Origin: Micrococcaceae bacterium Sec5.7
Lineage (GTDB): Bacteria; Actinomycetota; Actinomycetes; Actinomycetales; Micrococcaceae
DNA length: 64,000 bases
NCBI GenBank assembly: GCA_039636785.1
Contig: CP144169.1
Location: 744,001-808,000, forward strand
Reading direction: 5' to 3'
The translations under genes and the position numbers were made by a program. Of this stretch, positions 5,971 through 49,760 are shown one piece after another; position 1 is the stretch's first letter, and the number at the start of each line of letters is the position of its first letter. The notes under the pieces are model-generated. The model did not search any database, was not told where the DNA came from, and saw only the letters and a program-made list of their open reading frames with translations.

Positions 5971-6212
5971 CCGCTCTGTATTGGACCTGAGAGTTTCCGC
6001 GCAGCCAGCTTTCGCATGGCCCCGCTTGCACCGTCGGTGAGCATGGCCTGTTCGGGTTCAGCATCCTCGGATCAACCTTGGACACATGAATGGACAGCCT
6101 GCTGCTTTCCAGAGTTGCCTTGCCGCGGCGGTACATGGGCCTGAGAGATTCCTGGGGAGGATTTGCTCCTACGGCGCCTGCTTGTACCTACTAGCAGAAC
6201 TCTCCCGCCGCA
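5971..6212 (-). promoter_or_regulatory. Tandem glycine riboswitch upstream of gcvP
   Basis: Read on the minus strand, the first aptamer (about 6212-6124) has GCGGGAGAGTTC, then GGCGCCGTAGGAGCAAA and AATCTCTCAGGCCCA, closed by a GCGGCGG/CCGCCGC pairing. The second (about 6070-5971) has CACCGACGGTGCAAGCGGGG and GAAACTCTCAGGTCCAATACAGAGCGGGG. These are the conserved glycine-aptamer cores, and tandem arrangement is typical. Glycine riboswitches ahead of gcv operons usually switch expression on when glycine is abundant. About 45 bases separate the second aptamer from the gcvP start. The expression platform (terminator or ribosome-site masking) was not resolved. Confidence 0.93.
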
Positions 6213-6311
6213 GATCAAAGGCATATTCAATTGCTCGTGACCGCAGTCACAATGGCTATTATCCTACGCCCGGCGCCGAGGAGCAAATAAATTACTTCCG
6301 CCCGGCGGAGG

Positions 6312-6851
6312 CTAGCGGCGCAGCCGATCCAGGGCTGCCAGCAGGCTCTCGACGTCGGCCGCCGTCTGTACCGCTGTGCCGGACGGCCCGATCGAGAGCA
6401 TGGCATTGAAGTAAAGCCCGTCCCCCATGTACAGCACGGCCCGGGCGATCGCCGGGCCGACGTCGATGGCTATTTCCTCCAGCCACCGCTGTTGGATACG
6501 GGCGAATCTGCGTCGCGTCTCCTCGTGCGCAACTTCAGCGAGCCTTGTGGCGGCCACCACCGCACGGTCAAGGGGCGTATCATCCCAGACCGAGGACCGG
6601 ATGAAGTACGCCGCGGCGCCCTCGGGCGCCTGGGCCATGGCATCTGCATCGGCCGCTGCAAACTCATCAAGCCGGTCAAGCAGCACTCCAATCAATGCTT
6701 CCTTGTTGGGGAAGTGGTAAAGCAGCCCGCCCTTGGAGACACCGGCCCGCCTGGCGACGGCGTCCAGGGTGGCAGCACGCTCCCCCACCTCAATCAGGAG
6801 CGCTTCGAAGGCGTCGAGGACGGCGCCGCGGGCGACTGGGGTTCTGGCCAT
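6312..6851 (-). CDS. TetR-family transcriptional repressor
   Basis: This 179-residue protein has an N-terminal TetR helix-turn-helix (VARRAGVSKGGLLYHFPNKE, about residues 23-42) followed by a helical ligand-binding domain. The ATG at 6851 is preferred because AGGA lies a few bases upstream; an in-frame ATG at 6878 would add nine residues. It is divergent from an MFS exporter, with one large palindrome filling the gap, so it probably represses the exporter and itself until a drug or metabolite binds. The ligand cannot be read from the sequence. Confidence 0.9.
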   Translation of the reverse strand: MARTPVARGAVLDAFEALLIEVGERAATLDAVARRAGVSKGGLLYHFPNKEALIGVLLDRLDEFAAADADAMAQAPEGAAAYFIRSSVWDDTPLDRAVVAATRLAEVAHEETRRRFARIQQRWLEEIAIDVGPAIARAVLYMGDGLYFNAMLSIGPSGTAVQTAADVESLLAALDRLRR

Positions 6852-18919: not shown

Positions 18920-18999
18920 GAACGCTCTACACAACTGAATACATAACCATTCACAACGGATCGTCCGGCACGTACCTGCCGGTGAAGGGATTGATAACT

Positions 19000-29933: not shown

Positions 29934-30024
29934 CGCGACTCGCCGGAGCATTAATCGCAGTTTCAGTTGAGCCCACCCCACCGTTGATTCCGTCAGAGTG
30001 TTTTTCCGATGGTGGAAGGCAGTG

Positions 30025-31698
30025 ATGGAGTTGAGGGTGGATGTTTTTGCTCAGATCCGGCGGGACGCACGAATGGATGGCTTGTCCATTCGGCGATTGG
30101 CGAAGAAGTATCGTGTTGCGCGGCGAACGGTTCGTCAGGCGCTGGCATCGGCGGAGCCGCCGAGCCGAAAGATCCCGGTCCGGGTCGCCCCTAAGTTGGA
30201 TCAGTTCAAGCCTGCCATTGACGAGATGCTGAAGCAGGATCTGGTTGCGCCGCGGAAGCAGCGGCATACCGCTCAGCGGATCTTTGACCGCCTCATCGAT
30301 GAACACCGGGCAGAGGTTTCGTATTCGACGGTGCGCCAGTATGTGAAGGCCCGCCGGGTCCGGATCGAGTATGAGGCCGGCAAAACATCTCTGGAGGTGT
30401 TCATTCCTCAGGAACACGCCCCGGGTGCTGAGGCTGAAGTCGATTTTGGTGAAGTGTGGGTTGATCTGGCCGGGGTCCGCACGAAGTGTTACATGTTCGC
30501 GTTCCGGCTCTCCTTCTCCGGAAAGGCTGTCCATCGGGTCTACCCGACGCAGGGCCAGGAAGCGTTTCTGGAGGGTCACCTTGACGCCTTCGCGACCATT
30601 GGCGGCATCCCCACCGGGCATATCCGCTACGACAATCTCACGGCCGCGGTGAAGACTGTCCTGGGAACCGGTCGCGGAAGGGTGGAGAACGACAGGTGGG
30701 TGCTTTTTCGTTCGCATTGCGGCTTTGACCCGTTTTATTGCCAGCCGGGTCTGGCTGGGGCTCATGAGAAGGGCGGGGTTGAAGGAGAGGTCGGCAGGTT
30801 CCGCCGCAACCACCTTTCCCCGGTGCCGGCGGTCGCGTCGCTGGCTGAGTTGAATGAGCAGATCATGGTCTGGGACGAGGCTGATGACCGGCGCCGGATC
30901 AGCGGGAAACTCCGGCCGGTAGCCGATGACTACGCTGCCGAGCGGCCACTGCTCAATCCCTTGCCTGCCGAGGCCTTTGACCCCGGGCTGGTGCTGACTC
31001 CCAGGGTTGACCGGTCATCGCTGATCCGGGTTCGGATGGTGAAGTACTCAGTGCCGGTCCGGTTCATTGGCCACAGGGTCCGGGTTTCCTTGAAAGCCTC
31101 CGAAGTCGTTGTCTTCGACGGCCGTGCCGTGATCGCCAAACACCCGCGGATGACGGGCCGTGAGGGCAGCCAGGTGAACCTCGATCATTACCTTGAAGTC
31201 CTCAAACGCAAGCCCGGCGCGTTGCCGGGGTCCACCGCACTGGCGCAGGCCCGGGCAGCCGGGGTGTTCACGCCCGCTCATGACGCGTTCTGGGCCGCGG
31301 CCAGGCGGACCGACGGTGATTCGGAGGCCACGCGTCAGCTGGTCGATGTCCTGCTGCTCCACCGGTCCATGGATGCTGCGGATGTGATCGCCGGCATCAC
31401 CGCGGCCCTGGAGGTCGGCGCCGTCACGGCTGACGTGGTCGCTGTTGAAGCCCGCCTGGCCGCCTCTGAACGGGGTGGTGCGGGGTGGGTCCGGCCCGAT
31501 TGCGGTTCCGGTGCAACAACGGATCTGCGTGAGCACAGGATTGTCAGTCTCACCCAGCGCCGTCTGGCGGATCCGGCAGCCGTCATAGCCGGCCTGCCGC
31601 CGGATAACCGGCCCCTGCCCTCGGTGGCCGGCTATGACGAGCTCCTTACCCGCAGAACCACGCCACCAGTCCCGACCGTGCAGGAGAACATCTCATGA
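30025..31698 (+). CDS. istA: IS21-family transposase IstA
   Basis: The 557-residue protein has an N-terminal helix-turn-helix (LSIRRLAKKYRVARRTVRQA, about 15-35) and an rve integrase core with DDE residues in AEVDFGEVWVDL, RYDNLTAAVK and EKGGVEGEVGRFRR, then a beta-rich C-terminal Mu-type region (MVKYSVPVRFIGHRVRV). It cuts and joins the element's ends. The ATG at 30025 follows GGAAGG. The stop overlaps istB by four bases, as usual in this family. It appears complete. Confidence 0.95.
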   Translation: MELRVDVFAQIRRDARMDGLSIRRLAKKYRVARRTVRQALASAEPPSRKIPVRVAPKLDQFKPAIDEMLKQDLVAPRKQRHTAQRIFDRLIDEHRAEVSYSTVRQYVKARRVRIEYEAGKTSLEVFIPQEHAPGAEAEVDFGEVWVDLAGVRTKCYMFAFRLSFSGKAVHRVYPTQGQEAFLEGHLDAFATIGGIPTGHIRYDNLTAAVKTVLGTGRGRVENDRWVLFRSHCGFDPFYCQPGLAGAHEKGGVEGEVGRFRRNHLSPVPAVASLAELNEQIMVWDEADDRRRISGKLRPVADDYAAERPLLNPLPAEAFDPGLVLTPRVDRSSLIRVRMVKYSVPVRFIGHRVRVSLKASEVVVFDGRAVIAKHPRMTGREGSQVNLDHYLEVLKRKPGALPGSTALAQARAAGVFTPAHDAFWAAARRTDGDSEATRQLVDVLLLHRSMDAADVIAGITAALEVGAVTADVVAVEARLAASERGGAGWVRPDCGSGATTDLREHRIVSLTQRRLADPAAVIAGLPPDNRPLPSVAGYDELLTRRTTPPVPTVQENIS

Positions 31699-32504
31699 GC
31701 CCGACCAACCCCGTTGTTGTCTCCACCACCCTGCGCCGCCGCCGCGGGCTGACGGAGGAGGCCGCGACCGCGGCCGTGGATCATGCCTGCCGGCGCCTCC
31801 GATTGCCGACGATCCGGGCGGTCCTTACCGAGGCACTGACGGTGGCGGGAAAGGAGCAACTCTCCTATCAGGGATTCCTGGCGGAGCTGTTGTTGGCCGA
31901 GTGTGATGACCGGGACCGGCGCAGCTCCGTCCGCCGGGTGAAGTCCGCGAACTTTCCGCGCGATAAATGGTTGGGCGACTTCGACTACGACGCGAACCAG
32001 AACATCAACCAGGCGACGGTCAATACCCTGGCCACCGGGGACTGGATCCGCAAAGGCCATCCACTGTGTCTGATCGGGGACTCCGGGACAGGCAAATCCC
32101 ACCTCCTCATCGGCCTGGGCACCGCGGCGGCGGAGAAAGGGTTCCGGGTCAAGTACATCCTCGCCACCCGGCTGGTGAACGAACTGGTCGAGGCAGAGGA
32201 TGAGAAAGTCCTGGCGAAAACCATCGCCCGGTACGGGCGGGTGGATTTGCTCTGCATCGACGAACTTGGCTACATGGAACTGGACAAGCGCGGCGCCGAA
32301 CTGCTGTTCCAGGTCCTGACAGAACGTGAAGAGAAAGCGTCTGTGGCGATCGCGACAAACGAATCCTTCTCCCGGTGGACGAAAACCTTCACCGACCCGC
32401 GGCTCTGCGCGGCGATCGTTGACCGCCTGACGTTCAAAGGAACCATCATCGAGACCGGCACCGACTCCTACCGCCTCGCGCAAACCAAAAACCAACAGCA
32501 CTAG
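31695..32504 (+). CDS. istB: IS21-family helper ATPase IstB
   Basis: The 269-residue AAA+ ATPase has Walker A LIGDSGTGKSHLL (near residue 115) and Walker B VDLLCIDELGYM. It helps IstA to capture target DNA. The N-terminal 100 residues are divergent, but the IstB core is complete and ends QTKNQQH. A closely related but not identical C-terminus (QTKKQQN) recurs at 42443-42478, evidence for a second, mostly lost copy of this element type. Confidence 0.95.
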   Translation: MSPTNPVVVSTTLRRRRGLTEEAATAAVDHACRRLRLPTIRAVLTEALTVAGKEQLSYQGFLAELLLAECDDRDRRSSVRRVKSANFPRDKWLGDFDYDANQNINQATVNTLATGDWIRKGHPLCLIGDSGTGKSHLLIGLGTAAAEKGFRVKYILATRLVNELVEAEDEKVLAKTIARYGRVDLLCIDELGYMELDKRGAELLFQVLTEREEKASVAIATNESFSRWTKTFTDPRLCAAIVDRLTFKGTIIETGTDSYRLAQTKNQQH

Positions 32505-33323: not shown

Positions 33324-33506
33324 CTAGTCTTGGGCGCTGGGGCTTCTGTACATGCGCCTTCCCCAGCCGAACGCCGCGTAGGCAGCCCCCAGGACTGACG
33401 CCGAACCCAGCCATTCTGAACGCCCGTCAAAGAGGCAAAGGATCGCCGACATGACCAGAAGGACCGTCGCCGCTATGTAAATCTTTTTGCGACCAGATTG
33501 TTCCAT
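33324..33506 (-). CDS. Small two-helix membrane protein (60 aa), Rhs-associated
   Basis: The ATG at 33506 has AAGGGG seven bases upstream and gives 60 residues beginning MEQSGRKKIYI, with helices at about 9-25 and 33-47 and a basic end. The frame is open to a TTG at 33608, which would add a third hydrophobic segment (94 residues) but has no ribosome site. It follows the 64-residue membrane gene on the same strand, in the small-gene run behind the orphan Rhs tail. The function is unknown; an immunity role is possible. Confidence 0.6.
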   Translation of the reverse strand: MEQSGRKKIYIAATVLLVMSAILCLFDGRSEWLGSASVLGAAYAAFGWGRRMYRSPSAQD

Positions 33507-33627: not shown

Positions 33628-33822
33628 TCAACTAGGAGTGGTTGTGAGAGCACCGAACAATGCGTAGAGGAACAGTCCGACGGAGAGCAGTACGAGCAAC
33701 AGGACGACGGTTCGCCCGGGGAATGGCTTCCCTTTCGCTAAACGCTTCGATCGGACGTACAGGAAACAACCGCCTAGAACGAGTAGGGCCGCGAAGAGCG
33801 GTATCAATGGCCAGTAGCGCAC
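33628..33822 (-). CDS. Candidate immunity protein of the orphan Rhs tail (64 aa, two helices)
   Basis: The GTG at 33822 has AAGGAGG seven bases upstream, and that ribosome site is formed by the stop region of the Rhs frame, 12 bases away. The protein has helix one WPLIPLFAALLVLGGCFLYV, a basic loop KRLAKGKPFPGR and helix two TVVLLLVLLSVGLFLYALFG. Rhs immunity genes lie directly downstream of the toxin tail, and the toxin tail here is itself hydrophobic, so a membrane immunity protein would make sense. There is no sequence family match; the role rests on position and spacing. Confidence 0.72.
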   Translation of the reverse strand: MRYWPLIPLFAALLVLGGCFLYVRSKRLAKGKPFPGRTVVLLLVLLSVGLFLYALFGALTTTPS

Positions 33823-33834
33823 ATAATCACCTCC

Positions 33835-34733
33835 TTACTGACATGCCACGAACGCTGCACCAGCGGTCAGGGCGCCGAACGCTGCCGCCACTCCGGACAG
33901 AACTCCGAGGCTCAATCCTGCCGGGAGGCCGATCACCGAGGAGTCCACAAAGAGAGAGAACCCAAACAGACCTGCGGCGAATACTCCGATGCCCGCTGCA
34001 GCTGCGGTAAGTCCAGAACATGCGCTGAGTCCGGTGGGATCTGTGAAATTGCAGGGGCTGGCCCCTGCATAGAGATACCTGTTTCCCTCTTGCCCGGAGG
34101 GGTCGGGTTGGGTGAAGCGGCCGTTGCCGGGGGCGTAGTAGCGTGCACCGAACTTCGTGAGTCCGGTGGGGTCGTCTTTGTAGCCGCCGGCGTAGCGCCA
34201 TGGGTTGGCCGCGGCCTGTGTCCCGGTCTGGGTGGTGTTGCCCCAGGAGTCGTAGGTGTAGGTGGCTGCTTTGGCCTGGGTGCTGTCGGTGAGGGCGATG
34301 ACGGAGCCGAGCGCGTCGGTGGTGTAGTAGAAGCTGGCCCCGGCACTGTTGCGCATGCTGATGAGCGTACCCGCCGGGTCGCGGATGAACGAGGTGCTTG
34401 CGCCGGCGGTCGTCTGCTGGGTGATGCCGAGGGAGCCGTTGAGGTAGCTGGTGGCTCCGGCCGCGGTGCGCTCGGTGTTGGAGGGTCCGGCGTAGGCGAA
34501 GCTAGTCGTCGATCCCGCGGTGTGTGAGGCCAGCTGGTCGAAGGTGTTCCAGGTGCTGGTGGGTGTGCCGCCCCTGGTGGTGTTGCCGTTCGCGTCATAA
34601 GTGTAGGTCGAGGCACCGACCGGTGGCGCGGCGCAGGCCGCAGCGGCGGTACCCATCCAGCAGAGCTGGTCGGCGGCGTTGTAGGCCCAATGGAAAGTTG
34701 TGGCCCCTGTCTTGGCTGAGGTGAGACCGTTTG
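33835..34733 (-). pseudogene. Orphan Rhs core fragment with alternative C-terminal tail
   Basis: It has no start of its own. From about 34733 the frame reads as an Rhs/YD-repeat C-terminal core (YTYDANGN, YTYDSWGNTTQTGTQ, then GARYYAPGNGRFTQPDPSG) nearly identical to the main Rhs gene at 38.9-39.5 kb. After YLYAGASPCNFTDPTG it carries a different 64-residue tail, almost wholly hydrophobic (LTAAAAGIGVFAAGLFGF, later VLSGVAAAFGALTAGAAF), ending in FVACQ. This is the structure of displaced Rhs-CT orphon cassettes, able to recombine into the main gene. Upstream, homology stops at unrelated sequence. Confidence 0.85.
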
Positions 34734-34850
34734 CCGCGCTGGGCCCAGGGCATCGCCGAATCCGGGACGCCGTCGGTAATTACCAACCCCACAGCGTTTC
34801 TGGTGGACTTCCTGCCTGTCATTCGCCGCAAGCTGGGGCGCACCGGTCCA
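34731..34850 (+). pseudogene. Unrecognised coding remnant next to the Rhs orphan
   Basis: A plus-strand frame of about 40 codons reads LPRWAQGIAESGTPSV, then FLVDFLPVIRRKLGRTGPV, with the third-position GC of a real gene. It starts where Rhs homology ends and is cut by the second IS at 34858. I do not recognise the family. The RNase H-like frame beyond that IS is in another register, so the two may not be one gene. Confidence 0.35.
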
Positions 34851-34971
34851 GTCAGATTGAGTATTTGAAGCTTTGAGCGCCACCTGTTCGTGCGGTTCAG
34901 CGCCGGGGTTCGTGCGAGAGAGCGCCAGCGGTCGCGGGGCCTGGCGCCGCTGACGCTCTCCGTGACGGTTG

Positions 34972-35721
34972 CTAGGCGGTTGCGAGTGCTGTGTGCTCGC
35001 GCATGTTGTAATTGCCTGTCTCGACCCAGATCGTGTTGTGGATGATCCGGTCCATGATCGCGTCGGCGTGAACGCCGGAGCCGAGCCGCTGGTGCCAGTC
35101 CTTCTGCGAGTACTGGGTGCAGAACACTGTTGACGTCTCCCCGTAGCGGCGTTCCATCAGTTCCAGCAGCATGGTGCGCATCGATTCCGTGGGCCGATCC
35201 AGCAGCCACTCATCAATGACCAGCAGGGTGAATGCCGCATATTTGCGCAGGAACTTGCCGGATCCGCCAGGGGTGTCTTGGGCGGCGACCCAGGCTTCCT
35301 CGAGGTCGGGCATGCGGACGTAATGCGCGCGGATGCGGTGTTCGCATGCGCGTTTAGCGATCGCGCATCCCAGGTAGGACTTCCCCGACCCGGTGAACCC
35401 TTGGAAGACAACGTTCTGCTGCCGGGCCACGAACGAGCAGGTGCCGAGCTGGCTCAGCAGCGGCCGGTCAAGACCTCGCTCGTCGAGGAGGTCGATGCGG
35501 CGCAGGTCAGCGTTCGGGTAGCGCAGCCCCGCCCGCCGGATCAGGCCGGTGACTTTGGCATGGGTGAACGACGCGTAGGCGTCATCGACGACCAGCCGGA
35601 GACGATCTTCGAACGGCAGGCTGATGCTCAGCGTCTCGTCTTGGGTATCTATGGCCTCCAGCAGCTCGCCCGCGTTCATCTCCCGCAGCTTGCGTTTGGT
35701 TTCCGTGTCCAGGCGGCTCAT
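34972..35721 (-). CDS. istB: IS21-family helper ATPase IstB (element B)
   Basis: The 249-residue AAA+ ATPase has Walker A QGFTGSGKSYLGCA near residue 110 and Walker B TLLVIDEWLL near residue 165. Its start overlaps istA by four bases. It is the target-selection partner of the transposase. It appears full length, with no frameshift. Confidence 0.95.
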   Translation of the reverse strand: MSRLDTETKRKLREMNAGELLEAIDTQDETLSISLPFEDRLRLVVDDAYASFTHAKVTGLIRRAGLRYPNADLRRIDLLDERGLDRPLLSQLGTCSFVARQQNVVFQGFTGSGKSYLGCAIAKRACEHRIRAHYVRMPDLEEAWVAAQDTPGGSGKFLRKYAAFTLLVIDEWLLDRPTESMRTMLLELMERRYGETSTVFCTQYSQKDWHQRLGSGVHADAIMDRIIHNTIWVETGNYNMREHTALATA

Positions 35722-37271
35722 CGGGTCCCTCCTGCGTAGTAGGAGCTGCCGCGCACGTATCCGCCATCTTGGTCATCAGGCTCCTCGACGTGCCCGGTTT
35801 TGTCCTGCCCGGTGTCCAGGATCGGCCGCAGGTGGGCGTAACGGGGCGATCGTATCGGACCGCGCAGCGCGAGCTGGCATGCGGCTTCCACCCGGGCTGG
35901 TGAGAACCTACGAGACAGACGCAGCACCGCCAGGGCCGGGTCGTAGCCGGCTTCCTCGATGCGGACAGACTCGAAGATCTTCTCGATCACGGTCCCGGTC
36001 GCCGGTCCCATCCGTAACGCCCAGGCGTCGATCCGGGCCCGGTCCCAGGCTTGCCAGCTGTGCCCCTCGGGAAGGTCGGCTTCGTTCGTCCGATACTGGT
36101 TCGTCGTCGTCACGGGCAGCAGCAGGTGGCTGGTCAGGCGCTCATCACCCCGATAGATCTCGAGCACGGTGTCCGTGACGCGAAGATCAACATGCGCGCC
36201 GATGTGGGTGAACGGGACGGAGTAGAAGTTTTTTGACCAGACCACGTGTCCGTTCCGGCTTACTTTGCGCCCATATGTCCAGGTGCTGATCTCGAAAGTC
36301 ACCGCCGGCAACGGTTGCAGCAGCGGCTTCTCCTCGGCCGTGAACACGCTCAGCCGGGAGCCCTCCCGCTTCTGGAACGGCTGTCGGTTGTAGGCATCGA
36401 TCTGCTCCCGAATCCGGGCCCGCAGCTGCACCAGGCTGGTGAACTGCTCCTGCCTCAGACCCGCAATCACCCAGGTGGCGACGTGGGAGACAGTGTTTTC
36501 TACGCTGGCTTTGTCTTTCGGGTGCCGCACCCGGCCCGGTAGTACCGCCGCCGAATAATGCGCCGCCATCTCCCGATAGGCGTCGTTGAGGACGACTTCG
36601 CCCTCGCGCGGGTGAGAGATCACCCCGGTCTTGAGGTTGTCGGGGACGAGCCTCGGGACCGTGCCGCCGAAGAATGCGAACATCGCCGCATGCGCGCGCA
36701 GCCACGACTCCTGCCGCATATCCAACGTCGCCTCCACGAACGCATACCGGCTGAACGGCAGGCACGCGACGAACAAATACACCTTCGAGACCTCTCCCGT
36801 TGCCGGGTCAACGAGCTGCATCGTCGGCCCGGACCAGTCGACCTCGACGCCGCGGCCGGCCTTATGGCCGACCCGAGACGACGCGCCAGTGACGTTGGCG
36901 TAATCGCCGTAAAGCCTGCAGAACCGGTCATAACTCATCGCCGCTTGCCCGGCCCGACCGCACCCGTCGAGATACTCCTGGTGCAGCAGCTTCAACGTCA
37001 CCCCAACCCTGGCCAGCTCGCGGTGCACCTGGACCCAGTCCGGCTGCGCGAACACGCTCTCCCGCACCCCGCGACCGGGAAACAGCGCCAGATACACCTC
37101 GCCCTCAGACTTCTCCGCAACGTCGTCCCAACCGAGCCCGAGCTGATCCGCAGCATCGATCACCGCCTGAACGCTGTGCCTGGACATGCCCTGAGCAAGC
37201 GAGATCGCTCTGCCGGACAGGCCCTGGTTACGCAACTGCAAGACGAGCTTCGCCTTGATCTTCCGTACCAT
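35718..37271 (-). CDS. istA: IS21-family transposase IstA (element B)
   Basis: The protein has 517 residues from the ATG at 37271, which follows GGAAGGAG; an in-frame GTG seven codons earlier overlaps that site. It has a helix-turn-helix start (LSGRAISLAQGMSRHSVQAV), DDE core residues in GVEVDWSGPTMQL, VPDNLKTGV and KDKASVENTVSH, and a C-terminal region with WSKNFYSVPFTHIG. The length fits IstA. Intact genes, ends and target duplication suggest it could still be mobile. Confidence 0.95.
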   Translation of the reverse strand: MVRKIKAKLVLQLRNQGLSGRAISLAQGMSRHSVQAVIDAADQLGLGWDDVAEKSEGEVYLALFPGRGVRESVFAQPDWVQVHRELARVGVTLKLLHQEYLDGCGRAGQAAMSYDRFCRLYGDYANVTGASSRVGHKAGRGVEVDWSGPTMQLVDPATGEVSKVYLFVACLPFSRYAFVEATLDMRQESWLRAHAAMFAFFGGTVPRLVPDNLKTGVISHPREGEVVLNDAYREMAAHYSAAVLPGRVRHPKDKASVENTVSHVATWVIAGLRQEQFTSLVQLRARIREQIDAYNRQPFQKREGSRLSVFTAEEKPLLQPLPAVTFEISTWTYGRKVSRNGHVVWSKNFYSVPFTHIGAHVDLRVTDTVLEIYRGDERLTSHLLLPVTTTNQYRTNEADLPEGHSWQAWDRARIDAWALRMGPATGTVIEKIFESVRIEEAGYDPALAVLRLSRRFSPARVEAACQLALRGPIRSPRYAHLRPILDTGQDKTGHVEEPDDQDGGYVRGSSYYAGGTR

Positions 37272-37430
37272 TACCGGTACTCCTTCCACCACGTGGCCCT
37301 CACGCGGTGGAAGGAGCTTTTCAGGTGGCGCTCAACCACACCAACACTGGCGCTGACCAGCGCAAATCGTGGGCTCGGACCCCGGCGCTAACCCGCACCA
37401 CACATGGACCCCTCAAGAGCGAATATTCAG

Positions 37431-37880: not shown

Positions 37881-38078
37881 CTAGCGTCTACGCTTCCAGG
37901 ATCGAAACTTGGCGAGTTCGGCGCCAATCAGCACTAGAGCCAACACGAGAAACAAAAGCCCTAGCAACCAGTCCCCGTCGCCAAAGGAGAGGGCTGCCAT
38001 TATGACGAAGTACAGCGCTAGCCCGAGGGCCGCGACGGCAATCCACATTCGGTGACTTTCGTTTGGAATGACACTCAT
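37881..38078 (-). CDS. Small two-helix membrane protein (65 aa), Rhs-associated
   Basis: From the ATG at 38078 the 65-residue protein has helices at about 11-31 (MWIAVAALGLALYFVIMAAL) and 36-55 and a strongly basic tail (KFRSWKRRR). An in-frame TTG six codons earlier is possible. It is the third small membrane gene downstream of the main Rhs gene. No family is recognised. It could be an immunity protein for the present or an earlier toxin tail. Confidence 0.6.
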   Translation of the reverse strand: MSVIPNESHRMWIAVAALGLALYFVIMAALSFGDGDWLLGLLFLVLALVLIGAELAKFRSWKRRR

Positions 38079-38145
38079 CAACGGCCTGCCTTCCAATTAT
38101 TAGCCCTCACGCGGGTGAGGTCCCGACTACATACGGCTCCAACCG

Positions 38146-38370
38146 TCATGAATGCGCAACCAACGCATATATCAGTGTTAATGCTCCGGCCAGCACAAAC
38201 ACGGCCCCCACCGCTCTGATGAATCTTGGCCTCATGCGAACGTACGGAGCCATCCGAGGACTCATCCTCTTGTCCCACTTTTGTTGAAGCGAAGCCAACC
38301 GACGCGGCTGCCAAACTGCAATCAGACCTATCAAGGCGACCGCCAGGCCGGTCCAAACTAGATTCCCCAT
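38146..38370 (-). CDS. Small two-helix membrane protein (74 aa), Rhs-associated
   Basis: The ATG at 38370 follows GAGAGGG. Helices lie at about 3-20 (NLVWTGLAVALIGLIAVW) and 51-71, separated by a long basic loop (KWDKRMSPRMAPYVRMRPR). It is second in the run of small genes behind the main Rhs tail, 38 bases after the 34-residue gene. Function is unknown. The arrangement mirrors the one behind the orphan Rhs tail. Confidence 0.65.
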   Translation of the reverse strand: MGNLVWTGLAVALIGLIAVWQPRRLASLQQKWDKRMSPRMAPYVRMRPRFIRAVGAVFVLAGALTLIYALVAHS

Positions 38371-38540: not shown

Positions 38541-41500
38541 CTAGCCCAGTCTTGTGATGGCCGATATTCCATAGGTGCAGGGAGCACCAAGTGTGGCCGA
38601 GATCCCGAATGCTGAAGATGATGCCGATGTGCGGAAGAAAAGGGGGCCGATTGGACAGGTCAGAGCGAGGCTCGACGTACTTTCGGAAATATTGGTGTTT
38701 GAAACTGATGCCGATAAATTGGCACCAGCACCGCCGAATCCGAAGCCCGAAGTGAATCCGTAAACACCATTATCATCTTGGGACAGACCGAAATTTACGC
38801 AGAAAAACAAGCACACGCCAATTGTCTCATTCCCGGTCAGTCGTCCGCTCGGATCGGTATTGTTGACAGGGTTCGGGCCTGCGTAGAGGTACCGGTTTGC
38901 TTCCTGCCCGGAGGGGTCGGGTTGGGTGAAGCGGCCGTTGCCGGGGGCGTAGTAGCGTGCACCGAACTTCGTGAGTCCGGTGGGGTCGTCTTTGTAGCCG
39001 CCGGCGTACCGCCAGGGGTTGGCCGCGGCCTGTGTCCCGGTCTGGGTGGTGTTGCCCCAGGAGTCGTAGGTGTAGGTGGCTGCTTTGGTCTGGGTGCTGT
39101 CGGTGAGGGCGATGACGGAGCCGAGCGCGTCGGTGGTGTAGTAGAAGCTGGCCCCGGCACTGTTGCGCATGCTGATGAGCGTACCCGCCGGGTCGCGGAT
39201 GAACGAGGTGCTTGCGCCGGCGGTCGTCTGCTGGGTGATGCCGAGGGAGCCGTTGAGGTAGCTGGTGGCTCCGGCCGCGGTGCGCTCGGTGTTGGAGGGT
39301 CCGGCGTAGGCGAAGCTGGTCGTCGATCCCGCGGTGTGTGAGGCCAGCTGGTCGAAGGTGTTCCAGGTGCTGGTGGGTGTGCCGCCCTTGGTTTGGTTGC
39401 CATTCGCGTCATAGGTGTAGGTCGAGGCTCCGACCGGTGGTGAGGCGCAGGCGGCGGCTGCGGCTCCGTTCCAGCACAGCTGGTCGGCGGCGTTGTAGGC
39501 CGAATGGACGGTCGTCCCACCGGTCTTGGCTGAGGTGAGGCGGTTGCCGTTGAGGTCATAGGTCCAGGATTCGGTCACGGTGCCGGTGACGGCGGACTTC
39601 AGCCGCTGCACGGCATCGTAGCCATACGTGGTGACTGCGCCTGTGTCGGTGGTCATGGTCTTCCGCAACGCCCCGTCCCTGAGCGTGGTCGCATTGGTCG
39701 TGTAGGTGTAGGCGCGCTTGGCCAGGACGGCTGCCGCGGTGTTCGTCGCCGTGATGGAGGTGATCCTGCCGGCCTTGTCGTAGACCGTGGTGTTCTTCAC
39801 CCCGGTGGGGTACATGGTTGCGGTCCGGCGATTGTTGTCGTCGTTGGTGAAACCGGTGCAACCTGTGCTGTTCGGGAACACCGGGACGGCCGGGCAGGAC
39901 CCGCCCGGTTCTGCCAGGGCGGTCACCCGGTCCGCGTCGTCGTAGCGGTATCCGACCGTCCCGGTCGGATCGGTGAAGCTGGTGAGGTTGGACGCGTGGT
40001 CATACGCCAGGGATGTGGTGACTCCCCCGGTGGTCTTCGAGGCCGGGCGGTTCTGCTGGTCGTAGACGACACTGGTGGTCCCGGACCCGTCGACCCGGGT
40101 GGTGAGGTTGCCGTTGGCGTCGTAGGTGTAGGTCACGCAGCTCGCCGGGACGCAGCTCGCGCCGAAGCGCATCTGCAGCAAACGGTCGTTTCCGTCGTAG
40201 GCGTAGGTGGCGGTCTGGCCCTTGCCGTCCTTGCTGGTCGCGACCCGTCCGGCGGCGTCGAACGTTTTCGTGATGACCCCCAGCGGTGCCGGGCGGGTGA
40301 CCGTGACAGGATTCCGCGCGGCGTCGTAGGTGAGGGAGGTGGTGTTGCCCTTGCCGTCGATGGTCTTGCAGAGCTGGCCGCGGAGCGCCCCGCAGGTCGT
40401 GGCCGCCGCGTCGCCCTGGTATCTGGTGATGCGGGTGCCTCCGCCTGCCGCACCTCCCGGCGTGATGGTCTGGTACGGGCGCTTGGTGGCGGTGTCGTAG
40501 GTGTAGGCGGTGAGGTTTCCTTCGCTGTCCGTGGAGGAGACGGGCTGGAACTCCAGCCACGCCTCCCCGGCGGTGGCTGCCGGGTAGGTGTAGGCGATCT
40601 GCTTCGGTGTGCCTCCGGTCGCGCCGGCCGGGGAGGTGATGTTCGCCAGGGTGTTGTTCGGGTTGTACGCCGAGGTGCTCAGGTTGCCCAGATCATCGAG
40701 GTGGGTCAGCTGGTTGTCGTGCGCGTCGAAGGTCTTCGTGACCTTGTTCCCGAGCGGGTCGGTGACGGAGGTGATCTGGCGGGACGCGTTGAACTTGAAC
40801 GTCGTCACGCGGTTGTCGGTGTCCGTCAGGGTCGCGGTGGTGGCGTCCACGGAGGACAGGGTGTGGATGGTGGGGTCATTGCCGGCGGCGTCGTAGATGA
40901 TCTGGGCGGCCTTGCCGTTCACGTCGTAGCTCGTCTCGGTCCTGGCGCCCCGGCCGTCCGTCAGCCTGTGCAGCAGCCCGGAGGAGTAGTTGAAGCTGAC
41001 GTGCGCGCCGGCGGCGTCGGTCAGGTCCTGCAGGCGCCCGTCGCTGTCGTAATCGATGGTGATCATCCGGTTCAGGGTCTGGTCGGTGATTTTGGAGGGC
41101 TGGCCGGTGTTGTCCGCGTCGTTGTATTCGAAGAGGACCGTCCGGCCGTTGACGGTGGTGATGGTCTCCAGCCGGCCGTCGGTGTCGTAGGCGTAGGCGA
41201 TCCGGTCCGCGGTGTTGCTGTACTGGTCCCCGGCGAACGCGAGCCGGAACACCCCGTTGACCTTTTCGTAGAAGTTGGTGTTCCCCGAGCCGTTGAAGCG
41301 CAGCGTCACCGCCGTGGTGCTGAACGCGGTGATGGTCGCGTTCAGGCCGGCCGGCATGGTCCAGCCGCCCCCGGTCTTGGGCACGAACTTATACGTCCCG
41401 CCGTCGGCCGCCGTGTACGTGACGGAGTTGTCCGCGCCCACCGCCACCGCCGTCTCGGAAGTGCCCTCCGAGAGGGTGGGCCGGTCGTCGTTGATGCTGT

Positions 41501-41882
41501 TGTACCGAAGGGACAGGTCGATGTCCCGGTCCGTGCCTTCGAGATGAAGGAGCTTACCGGTGACCAGGATGTTGCCGGTGGTCGGGTTCCAGGCGAGGTT
41601 CATGCTGTCCGTCAGGCTGCGGTTGACCATTCCGGCCGGGGACAGGGAACCGGACAGGTGTCCGTTCGGTCCGGCCGCCGGCGGCAGGGTGTCATTGAGC
41701 GGGATGCTCTGCGCCACCGCCAGGTTCATCGGCGCCGAGACGGCCGGCGCAAGCGTCGTGGGCGCCACGCTCCGCGGCGGCACCACGGCGGGCGTTGAAG
41801 CGGTTCCTGCCGGGGCGCTCAGGCCCGTCAGAACAACCGCGGAAAGGACAAGACCTGACACAAGAGACCGTAAAGCAGCCAT
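38541..41882 (-). CDS. Secreted Rhs/YD-repeat protein with unrecognised C-terminal tail
   Basis: The protein has 1113 residues from the ATG at 41882 (GGGGG six bases upstream; an ATG at 41933 in frame is possible). A signal peptide (SLVSGLVLSAVVLTGLSAPA) is followed by a Pro/Ala linker, many YD repeats (YDADGRL, YDSDGRLQDLTD, YTYDANGNLTT and others, about 240-900), and the Rhs core ending GRFTQPDPSG and NPVNNTDPSG. The last 100 residues change character: Gly/Ser-rich, with four cysteines, more AT-rich DNA and no known toxin motif. Rhs shells enclose and release such tails. It is presumably exported and possibly wall-associated. Confidence 0.88.
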   Translation of the reverse strand: MAALRSLVSGLVLSAVVLTGLSAPAGTASTPAVVPPRSVAPTTLAPAVSAPMNLAVAQSIPLNDTLPPAAGPNGHLSGSLSPAGMVNRSLTDSMNLAWNPTTGNILVTGKLLHLEGTDRDIDLSLRYNSINDDRPTLSEGTSETAVAVGADNSVTYTAADGGTYKFVPKTGGGWTMPAGLNATITAFSTTAVTLRFNGSGNTNFYEKVNGVFRLAFAGDQYSNTADRIAYAYDTDGRLETITTVNGRTVLFEYNDADNTGQPSKITDQTLNRMITIDYDSDGRLQDLTDAAGAHVSFNYSSGLLHRLTDGRGARTETSYDVNGKAAQIIYDAAGNDPTIHTLSSVDATTATLTDTDNRVTTFKFNASRQITSVTDPLGNKVTKTFDAHDNQLTHLDDLGNLSTSAYNPNNTLANITSPAGATGGTPKQIAYTYPAATAGEAWLEFQPVSSTDSEGNLTAYTYDTATKRPYQTITPGGAAGGGTRITRYQGDAAATTCGALRGQLCKTIDGKGNTTSLTYDAARNPVTVTRPAPLGVITKTFDAAGRVATSKDGKGQTATYAYDGNDRLLQMRFGASCVPASCVTYTYDANGNLTTRVDGSGTTSVVYDQQNRPASKTTGGVTTSLAYDHASNLTSFTDPTGTVGYRYDDADRVTALAEPGGSCPAVPVFPNSTGCTGFTNDDNNRRTATMYPTGVKNTTVYDKAGRITSITATNTAAAVLAKRAYTYTTNATTLRDGALRKTMTTDTGAVTTYGYDAVQRLKSAVTGTVTESWTYDLNGNRLTSAKTGGTTVHSAYNAADQLCWNGAAAAACASPPVGASTYTYDANGNQTKGGTPTSTWNTFDQLASHTAGSTTSFAYAGPSNTERTAAGATSYLNGSLGITQQTTAGASTSFIRDPAGTLISMRNSAGASFYYTTDALGSVIALTDSTQTKAATYTYDSWGNTTQTGTQAAANPWRYAGGYKDDPTGLTKFGARYYAPGNGRFTQPDPSGQEANRYLYAGPNPVNNTDPSGRLTGNETIGVCLFFCVNFGLSQDDNGVYGFTSGFGFGGAGANLSASVSNTNISESTSSLALTCPIGPLFFRTSASSSAFGISATLGAPCTYGISAITRLG

Positions 41883-42307
41883 GCTGCGCCCCCAATATGA
41901 TGTGCTCCCCAGCGAGCCGCTTCGCGCCCCCATGAGCACAGGATGATCATCAGTGATTGCCGCCGCACATTGCAATACATGTGGATGCATTTTCTCCAGA
42001 CCATGGCGTAACCCTTGGGCGGCCCCGAGTTACCACTCCATGGTCGTGTGACATCCGCAACGATCCCCGCTGCCACCCGCCGAGTCTCGACGGGATAAAT
42101 CCAGGAATCGGCAGGAATCCGCGCCTTTGAGCTGGACTGGAGGCATCTCTGTCGTCGAGTCGACACGTGATCCACGTTGCGGATGGCCTTGCTGGGTGCC
42201 CGCCCGGGCGTCCTGTGACAGCAGGATTACAGGCCCGTCAGAATCTTGACTCTTTTTGCAAACTCCGGACTTATCGGACGCGGCTGGCCAGTCGGAGCTT
42301 CAGCGAA
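41883..42307 (-). other. Upstream region of the Rhs gene, no gene recognised
   Basis: The stretch is 425 bases between the Rhs start and an SDR fragment. It should contain the Rhs promoter, but I could not name convincing -35 and -10 boxes. Open frames on both strands are short and unlike known families. Confidence 0.5.
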
Positions 42308-44249: not shown

Positions 44250-44367
44250 GTCCGGCGGTGACCTACTCTCCCACACCCTCCCGGGTGCAGTACCATCGGC
44301 GCTGTGGGTCTTAGCTTCCGGGTTCGGAATGGGACCGGGCGTTTCCCCCACGCTATGACCGCCGTAA
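44250..44367 (-). rRNA. rrf: 5S ribosomal RNA
   Basis: On the minus strand the conserved 5S elements are in order: GTTACGGCGGTCATAGCGTG at the 5' end, CCCGGTCCCATTCCGAACCC, GGTACTGC and GAGAGTAGGTCACCGCCG at the 3' end. The length of about 118 bases is typical. Confidence 0.95.
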
Positions 44368-44470
44368 CCCTTGCTCCCGTCCCGCACACCGGGGTGTGGG
44401 GTGGGAAATCTGGTGTTACAACTGTGGTGTTGTTATTCAGTTGTGGTGTTCCCTGCAACAAGCCGGTAAG

Positions 44471-44502
44471 GGTTTGTTGTTTGGGAACCACATAGTGGAC
44501 GC
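44471..44502 (-). other. 23S processing stem, 3' strand
   Basis: On the minus strand GCGTCCACTATGTGGTTCCC and the next 12 bases are complementary to a sequence upstream of the 23S 5' end (47842-47872). The two would pair and bring the ends of pre-23S together for RNase III cleavage. Confidence 0.75.
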
Positions 44503-44574
44503 AAGCAGTCTTGTTTCTTTGTACCACCCTTGGTGTGAACGTCTTTTGAAGGATCCGTTCACGGGTGGTGTGTG

Positions 44575-47708
<3,134 letters not shown>

Positions 47709-47841
47709 CCACAAAAGATCAAAAAAACTAATTCACGAGAGAACCACAGAAACCACCCACACACACCATCCCGAAAGACAGCACACGCACGGACAGATCC
47801 AGGTTCATATTCTTGGAAATTGCTTCTTATAAAAGATGCTC

Positions 47842-47872
47842 GCGTCCACTATGTAGTTCTCAAACAACAACC
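47842..47872 (-). other. 23S processing stem, 5' strand
   Basis: On the minus strand it reads GGTTGTTGTTTGAGAACTAC then ATAGTGGACGC, complementary to 44471-44502 with only a few mismatches or G-T pairs. It is the left side of the pre-23S stem. Confidence 0.75.
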
Positions 47873-48006
47873 CCAAACCACACACCCCACACACAACCCC
47901 CGAAGGAGAACCACGTGCGTGATCGATGCAGCCAGGAAACCAGAAACAAACAAAACCCGCGGACACGGCAAAAGCCATGAACCCGCGGCCCTGTTGCCTC
48001 AGGACC

Positions 48007-48020
48007 CAACAGTGTGCCAA
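48007..48020 (-). other. 16S processing stem, 3' strand
   Basis: TTGGCACACTGTTG on the minus strand pairs with CAATAGTGTGCCAA in the leader (49919-49932): 13 Watson-Crick pairs and one G-T pair. It would close the pre-16S loop. Confidence 0.65.
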
Positions 48021-48227
48021 ACACTAAACCACCCACTCACCCCCGCACCGTTCCAGGCACCCTCCCGAAGGAAAACACCGTACTAAGCACCGGAGAAAAC
48101 CGGCAGCCGCTATTCGCTGATATTCCACCCATGAGCACCCGCCGCGGAACAATCGTCCGCGAAACGGGCTGTACTCCTGACAACCCCCGCCCCCCGCATA
48201 CACGGAAAACAGGACATTGTAGGTGCT

Positions 48228-49760
<1,533 letters not shown>

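Follow-up and report, generated by a model that had tools for sequence, protein, structure and literature searches.

The window considered here is the whole 64,000-nucleotide stretch analysed, which is part of the 4.4 Mb genome of an Arthrobacter-type soil actinobacterium. It holds a full-length Rhs gene and, 4.8 kb downstream of it, an orphan Rhs core fragment that ends in a short hydrophobic tail and is followed by a very small membrane-protein gene. The features of the locus are as follows.

38541..41990, minus strand: main Rhs/YD-repeat gene, full-length, 1149 aa (14 RHS_repeat stretches and TIGR03696)
38146..38370, minus strand: two-TM ORF of putative function (ORF list and hydropathy)
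37881..38096, minus strand: 71-aa two-TM ORF, candidate extra immunity gene (ORF list)
34972..37292, minus strand: genes of an IS21-type element that separates the orphan from the main rhs region (Pfam)
35718-37292, minus strand: istA of this element
34972-35721, minus strand: istB of this element
34064..34736, minus strand: orphan Rhs core fragment, a 673-bp repeat of the main gene (DNA identity)
33838..34026, minus strand: 63-aa hydrophobic tail, putative toxin (TIGR03696 ends at 34027; homologues; two-helix model)
33823..33837, minus strand: stop codon and ribosome-binding site of the downstream gene, TAAGGAGGTGAT (sequence)
33628..33822, minus strand: 64-aa two-TM protein, predicted cognate immunity protein (homologues; two-helix model)
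33324..33506, minus strand: further two-TM ORF of 60 aa, beginning MEQSGRKK, a candidate for the second immunity gene in a small array (ORF list)

The translation of the main Rhs gene begins with a signal-peptide-like hydrophobic stretch. The main protein has its own 100-aa tail, which begins after DPSG and differs from the orphan tail. This main tail (38541-38843) is Gly/Ser-rich with four Cys and is probably a beta-type domain of 100 aa. A 113-aa tail resembling it has been found at another locus (L092), where a small two-TM gene also lies downstream; in the window, the two-TM ORF nearest to the main gene starts 170 bases past the main stop. The IS21-type element shows Pfam matches to IstB_IS21, rve, and Mu-transpos_C_2, and its terminal inverted repeats lie near 34873-34915 and 37322-37398. 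The orphan cassette is in fact flanked by two different IS21-type elements on opposite strands, at 29998-32504 (plus) and 34972-37292 (minus), and no DNA similarity could be detected between the two. A further ~130 bp (34737-34870) lies outside both the orphan core and the IS21 element and is possibly the remnant of another mobile element.

The orphan core matches positions 38878-39549 of the main rhs gene with 94.4% DNA identity in a single block with sharp ends, and the DNA upstream of 34736 is unrelated to the main gene. The original prediction had described the core as an orphan, and this description holds: homology to the main gene is confined to 34064-34736, and the fragment has no N-terminus, 5' part, start context, signal peptide, or export signal. 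A repeated core that lacks start and export signals and carries its own downstream gene, predicted to encode immunity, has the features of an orphan Rhs module. In the ORF at 33835-34656, the TIGR03696 match (E 8e-22; 8.4e-22) ends at residue 210, the leucine of DPTGL.

The tail comprises residues 211-273 of this ORF (coding positions 34026-33838), starts with SACSGLTAAAAG, and ends with AGAAFVACQ. A hydrophobic tail had been predicted after the orphan core and is indeed present, but its length is 63 residues from the TIGR03696 border and not the 64 first given. It has a GRAVY of 1.51 and a single charged residue (D28), with no lysine or arginine. Cysteines are located at positions 3 and 62, and a glycine run is formed by G33, G37, G41, and G45. 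A structure model of moderate confidence (pLDDT 70, three-sequence alignment) shows a two-helix hairpin with helices 2-28 and 34-62. The GxxxGxxxG motif is retained at aligned positions in all three tails compared (window, L009, and L142), and measured against each tail's own composition the run is only weakly unusual (window p 0.025, L009 p 0.28). Glycine zippers are needed for the toxicity of TelE (PMC10434224) and form the motif of the EsxX toxin (PMC12744356).

The border between core and tail is also where release of the tail would be expected. The Rhs toxin Tse5 is cleaved at L1168-I1169 with the involvement of Asp1141 and Asp1164 (PMC10684867). Both of these positions are occupied by Asp in the orphan core, in PDPSG and in DPTGL, and the alignment of the core with Tse5 runs to the final residue of the Tse5 shell chain, the leucine of DPTGL, and no farther. 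Since both Asp residues are kept and the match ends at the cut residue, self-cleavage after DPTGL would be expected to release exactly the 63-aa tail.

The stop codon of the tail (TAA, 33837-33835) and the bases downstream of it, TAAGGAGGTGAT, form a nearly full complement of the anti-Shine–Dalgarno end of 16S rRNA, with GGAGG 7 nt before the GTG start at 33822. The earlier reading of the stop region as the ribosome site of the next gene, 12 bases downstream, is therefore borne out, the stop-to-start distance being 12 bases and the site near-ideal. The 64-aa partner has two hydrophobic segments, as had been proposed, and AlphaFold2 likewise gives two helices (6-28 and 35-61) with modest confidence (pLDDT 69.5, three-sequence alignment). 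It has no acidic residue, and its positive charges lie mainly in the inter-helix loop, RSKRLAKGKPFPGR. By the positive-inside rule, these loop charges predict a cytoplasmic loop with both ends outside.

Neither the tail nor the partner scored above any curated cut-off in Pfam and NCBIfam, and neither was found in plasmid records. A Foldseek search with the tail model gave nothing significant, and a PDB profile search with the partner gave chance matches only. Assignments of the partner as TctB, DUF3995, or a holin were dismissed as generic hydrophobic matches with weak scores. The first partner search in the family returned 40-odd weak matches, mostly within long frames, which were taken as noise. 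An order-wide search with the tail profile likewise gave weak partial matches only, mostly within long frames; further weak tail matches (L005-L008) were judged from the match table alone.

The tail family is rare. Among ~85,000 species genomes, one close relative was found, in Arthrobacter humicola (L009), with 69% identity over 62 residues. This tail ends a complete, secreted-type Rhs gene of 1093 aa, and the next gene (6206-6397) encodes a relative of the partner that is 49-51% identical. Farther downstream, a second copy of the partner survives as a remnant (63% over 33 aa), and one more two-TM ORF is present. The family search also found a distant relative of the tail (34% identity) in an intact Rhs gene of genome G085 (L004/L142), followed 10 bases after the tail by a 62-aa two-TM protein that shares the charged loop and the PS ending with the window partner. 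Extra two-TM ORFs that follow in L009 and L004 are analogous to the one at 33324..33506, a likeness of position. The partner profile matched in 8 of 150 genomes of the window's genus, including the window and A. humicola. The latter has two partner loci, the second of which (L158) is a decayed tail with a partner. An intact partner without a tail, at 64% identity, occurs at L157, and decayed or distant partner copies without a tail occur at L159-L163.

Altogether, tail and partner occur together in three intact loci and one decayed locus, and the co-occurrence that the original prediction had called for is thus found. A partner relative is present after every tail found, while the partner also occurs without a tail. 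Because the tail is always accompanied and the partner is sometimes alone, which is not expected of a toxin, the partner appears immunity-like.

The partner genes of A. humicola form arrays (L009 6206-6805 and L158 2900-3806) that resemble a small polyimmunity locus. They contain one intact copy, second copies in decay, and a conserved, unrelated two-TM ORF that is 71% identical between the loci. In another genome (G810), apparently identical orphan partner copies (L162 5519-5698 and L163 2288-2467) adjoin an integrase-type transposase gene on two contigs of 4.25 Mb and 0.26 Mb.

Between the window and L009, the cores are 33% identical while the tails are 68-69% identical. The jump from 33% in the core to 69% in the tail marks the tail as a module that has been exchanged and whose border is DPTG. 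A core ending in DPxGL, a variable tail, and exchange of the tail between cores are the features of Rhs polymorphic toxins. Nei-Gojobori comparison of the window and L009 tails gives pS 0.80 and pN 0.17, and comparison of the window and L157 partners gives pS 0.76 and pN 0.25. By these values, in which synonymous change prevails for both genes, the two frames have been kept as proteins over the divergence compared; the present use of the window copy is a separate matter. As homologous pairs occur elsewhere and both ORFs are constrained as proteins, the pairing is more than chance.

Most catalogued Rhs-type tails are enzymes, and the large 2012 polymorphic toxin survey has a single pore-forming domain and, among immunity families, just two of the two-TM type (PMC3482391). 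A membrane-inserting tail paired with a small membrane immunity protein had been regarded as a pair without a recognised counterpart. This does not stand, since precedents exist in Tse5/Tsi5 (PMC9637101, PMC10684867), in the CdiI proteins of CDI systems (PMC11630599), and in the two-TM types Tox-WTIP, Imm-CdiI, and Imm17 of Zhang et al. 2012 (PMC3482391). One close system is Tse5 (RhsP1)/Tsi5 of Pseudomonas aeruginosa, in which an Rhs tail that inserts into membranes has a small immunity protein of the two-TM type as its partner (PMC9637101, PMC10684867). As here, there is an Rhs shell with a hydrophobic tail at the end of the core and a two-TM partner. The Tse5 tail is released by Asp-pair cleavage and is pore-forming, and both properties are predicted for the window tail. 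On the other hand, Tse5-CT has ~150 residues (1169-1317) and is delivered by a T6SS in a Gram-negative bacterium, whereas the window tail has 63 residues and belongs to a signal-peptide-type Rhs system of an actinomycete. In a comparison that covered solved chains, matches to Tse5 stop at the core border, and none within the tail reached E<=0.01.

The CDI ionophores of E. coli also combine a membrane-depolarising C-terminal toxin with a small hydrophobic immunity protein, CdiI, encoded next to it; the CdiI proteins are two-helix hairpins of 72-100 residues (PMC11630599). The CDI toxin is a five-helix ionophore with an entry domain on CdiA, while the window tail has 63 residues and two predicted helices, and the tail was rejected as a CDI ionophore because the five-helix fold does not fit. 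The orientation of the partners differs as well, since the ends of CdiI are predicted to be cytoplasmic and the charged loop of the window partner suggests the opposite. The tail does not fit Tox-WTIP (RxxR in helix 1, W-TIP in helix 2), as it has no R, K, or W. The partner does not fit Imm17 (two TM, with WxW and R between them); it has two helices but a single W, no WxW, and no Pfam match.

Other systems share some of these properties. The teneurin-like protein BiTLP of Bacillus inaquosorum is, like the window protein, a Gram-positive YD shell with a hydrophobic C-terminal fragment, which is cleaved and permeabilises cells only when exported (PMC13018210). Its fragment has 93 residues with one predicted TM and a Cys bonded to the FN plug, and the available text mentions no two-TM partner. 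TelE/TipE and EsxX/ExiCD are GxxxGxxxG membrane toxins with specific immunity (PMC10434224, PMC12744356), the motif being present in the window tail too, and the EsxX membrane immunity is also found as orphans, like the window partner family (PMC12744356). Unlike the window pair, TelE and EsxX have LXG/T7SS carriers, TipE is soluble, and ExiC and ExiD are polytopic. In its predicted mode of action the pair resembles Tse5/Tsi5, the CDI ionophores with CdiI, and BiTLP. Since the searches found no sequence relation to these, the Tox-WTIP and Imm17 signatures are absent, and the CDI fold does not fit, the proper filing of the pair would be as a new toxin and a new immunity family within a known kind, namely an Rhs toxin with a membrane-acting tail and two-TM immunity.

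The association of short hydrophobic tails with small membrane-protein genes has been surveyed beyond this family. Rhs C-termini were collected with the core model from 197 Micrococcaceae genomes, giving 77 tails after duplicate removal (a sample that takes in the window and L009; survey loci L068-L146), and by the same rule from an independent class-wide sample (L165-L224). A tail was counted as hydrophobic at <=130 aa with a GRAVY of at least 0.4, and an ORF was taken as a partner if it encoded 45-130 aa, had two or more TM segments by hydropathy, and started from -45 to +60 of the stop. Under these hydropathy rules, which are crude and subject to imperfect ORF choice in high-GC DNA but were applied equally to the controls, a small two-TM gene lies directly downstream of 12 of 16 hydrophobic tails in Micrococcaceae and of 4 of 61 others (Fisher 7e-8). 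The class-wide figures are 6 of 11 and 2 of 49 (2e-4), the other five hydrophobic tails having no small two-TM neighbour by this simple rule. The class-wide sample is the cleaner test, because the thresholds were set after the first sample had been inspected. Based on this association, the window pair represents one rare family in a common class.

All 27 hydrophobic tails of the two samples contain at least two Cys, mostly exactly two, compared with 20/59 and 30/47 of the other tails; in the family sample the Cys density is 3.1 per 100 residues in hydrophobic tails and 0.56 in others. An all-against-all BLAST without composition correction placed nearly all the hydrophobic tails in a single group, a compositional artefact; with the correction, the 27 tails fall at 30% identity into 21 groups, so the pattern does not come from repeated counting of a single family. 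In most tails of 60-70 residues, the Cys pair brackets the hairpin, as C3 and C62 do in the window. A disulfide between the two cysteines is the natural, sequence-based expectation; alternatively, a tail Cys may be bonded to the shell by analogy with the BiTLP C-terminal fragment (PMC13018210). The window pair thus appears to belong to a widespread, little-studied class of Rhs toxins acting on cell membranes, of which no description in Actinomycetes was found in the open-access literature. We propose more tentatively, and at somewhat less than even odds, that Actinomycetes hold a large undescribed class of minimal Rhs membrane toxins, each a Cys-braced hairpin with its own two-TM immunity protein. 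These would be Gly/Ala-rich hairpins of ~50-100 residues from many unrelated families, with the Cys pair formed after Sec export.

A toxin tail followed by its immunity gene, as first suggested, is the best reading of the pair, both functions being predicted ones. We consider it probable (roughly 0.77) that the locus is a displaced Rhs cassette for a membrane toxin and its cognate membrane immunity, which stays silent until recombination places it on the main rhs gene. The 63-residue tail would be a membrane toxin in the form of a glycine-zipper helical hairpin, possibly with a disulfide between its end cysteines, and self-cleavage after DPTGL would free it from the Rhs shell. The freed tail would enter the cytoplasmic membrane of a target cell from outside, oligomerise into a pore, and dissipate the membrane potential, while the 64-residue partner, seated in the membrane, would neutralise it by blocking its insertion or assembly. 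As the orphan has no start and no signal, its route to use would be recombination with the main gene across the 673-bp repeat, by which the tail would become part of the main, secreted Rhs protein. In the meantime, the partner gene with its own strong ribosome site could provide protection. An arrangement of this kind is the orphan Rhs-CT/RhsI of Salmonella, where a displaced tail and its immunity gene also lie downstream of the main rhs and are activated by recombination through a 522-bp, 95% identical repeat (PMC3967940), compared with 673 bp and 94.4% here. The Salmonella tail is of a different type, with no hydrophobic hairpin described in the available text, and an IS21 element separates the main gene from the orphan in the window.

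Three other explanations have been weighed against this. The most serious, which we nevertheless regard as rather unlikely, is that the copy in the window is inert debris, the decaying remains of a cassette that IS21 has cut off and of which at most the immunity gene is still used. The missing start and signal peptide, the adjacent IS21 element, the unrelated DNA upstream of 34736, and the existence of decayed relatives all point that way, and given the IS21 insertion and the lost 5' end the cassette itself may be dying. Still, the tail and partner frames are intact, the ribosome site is near-perfect, and the repeat could bring the cassette back into use, as happens in Salmonella (PMC3967940). 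This explanation also concerns the present state of the window copy and not the nature of the pair.

The other two explanations question what the tail and the partner do. The tail resembles membrane bacteriocins in size and composition, and it could act as a bacteriocin-like membrane peptide through a specific membrane receptor. The partner would then protect by sitting on this receptor or changing it, without binding the toxin itself. CDI ionophores do require membrane-protein receptors (PMC11630599). However, the tail, at 63 aa, lacks an entry domain of its own, and the presence of a partner with every tail found fits direct pairing better, which makes this mode of action improbable. A reading without any toxin is less probable still, to the point of being very doubtful: the tail would be a segment that anchors or displays the Rhs protein at the membrane, and the small protein would serve as its membrane chaperone or partner. 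Strongly hydrophobic tails could keep a secreted protein attached to the membrane, but these tails are polymorphic and have been exchanged among unrelated cores. Unlike a chaperone, the partner is also found by itself and as extra copies in decay, and an anchor would be cut away if the conserved Asp pair is active.

If the membrane-toxin cassette is the correct reading, the pair would be practical for studying how membrane immunity recognises a pore former, since it is very small (63 aa and 64 aa). By the survey, Actinomycetes commonly pair short membrane-type Rhs tails with small two-TM genes; for the window pair itself there is no family model. The shared Cys pair makes a testable prediction on how greasy toxin tails survive secretion.

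Elsewhere in the window, a complete rRNA operon (16S, 23S, 5S) at 44250-49760 on the minus strand accounts for the low-GC stretch. A glycine riboswitch is located at 6119-6217 (minus) and an msiK RNA at 18939-18997 (plus).
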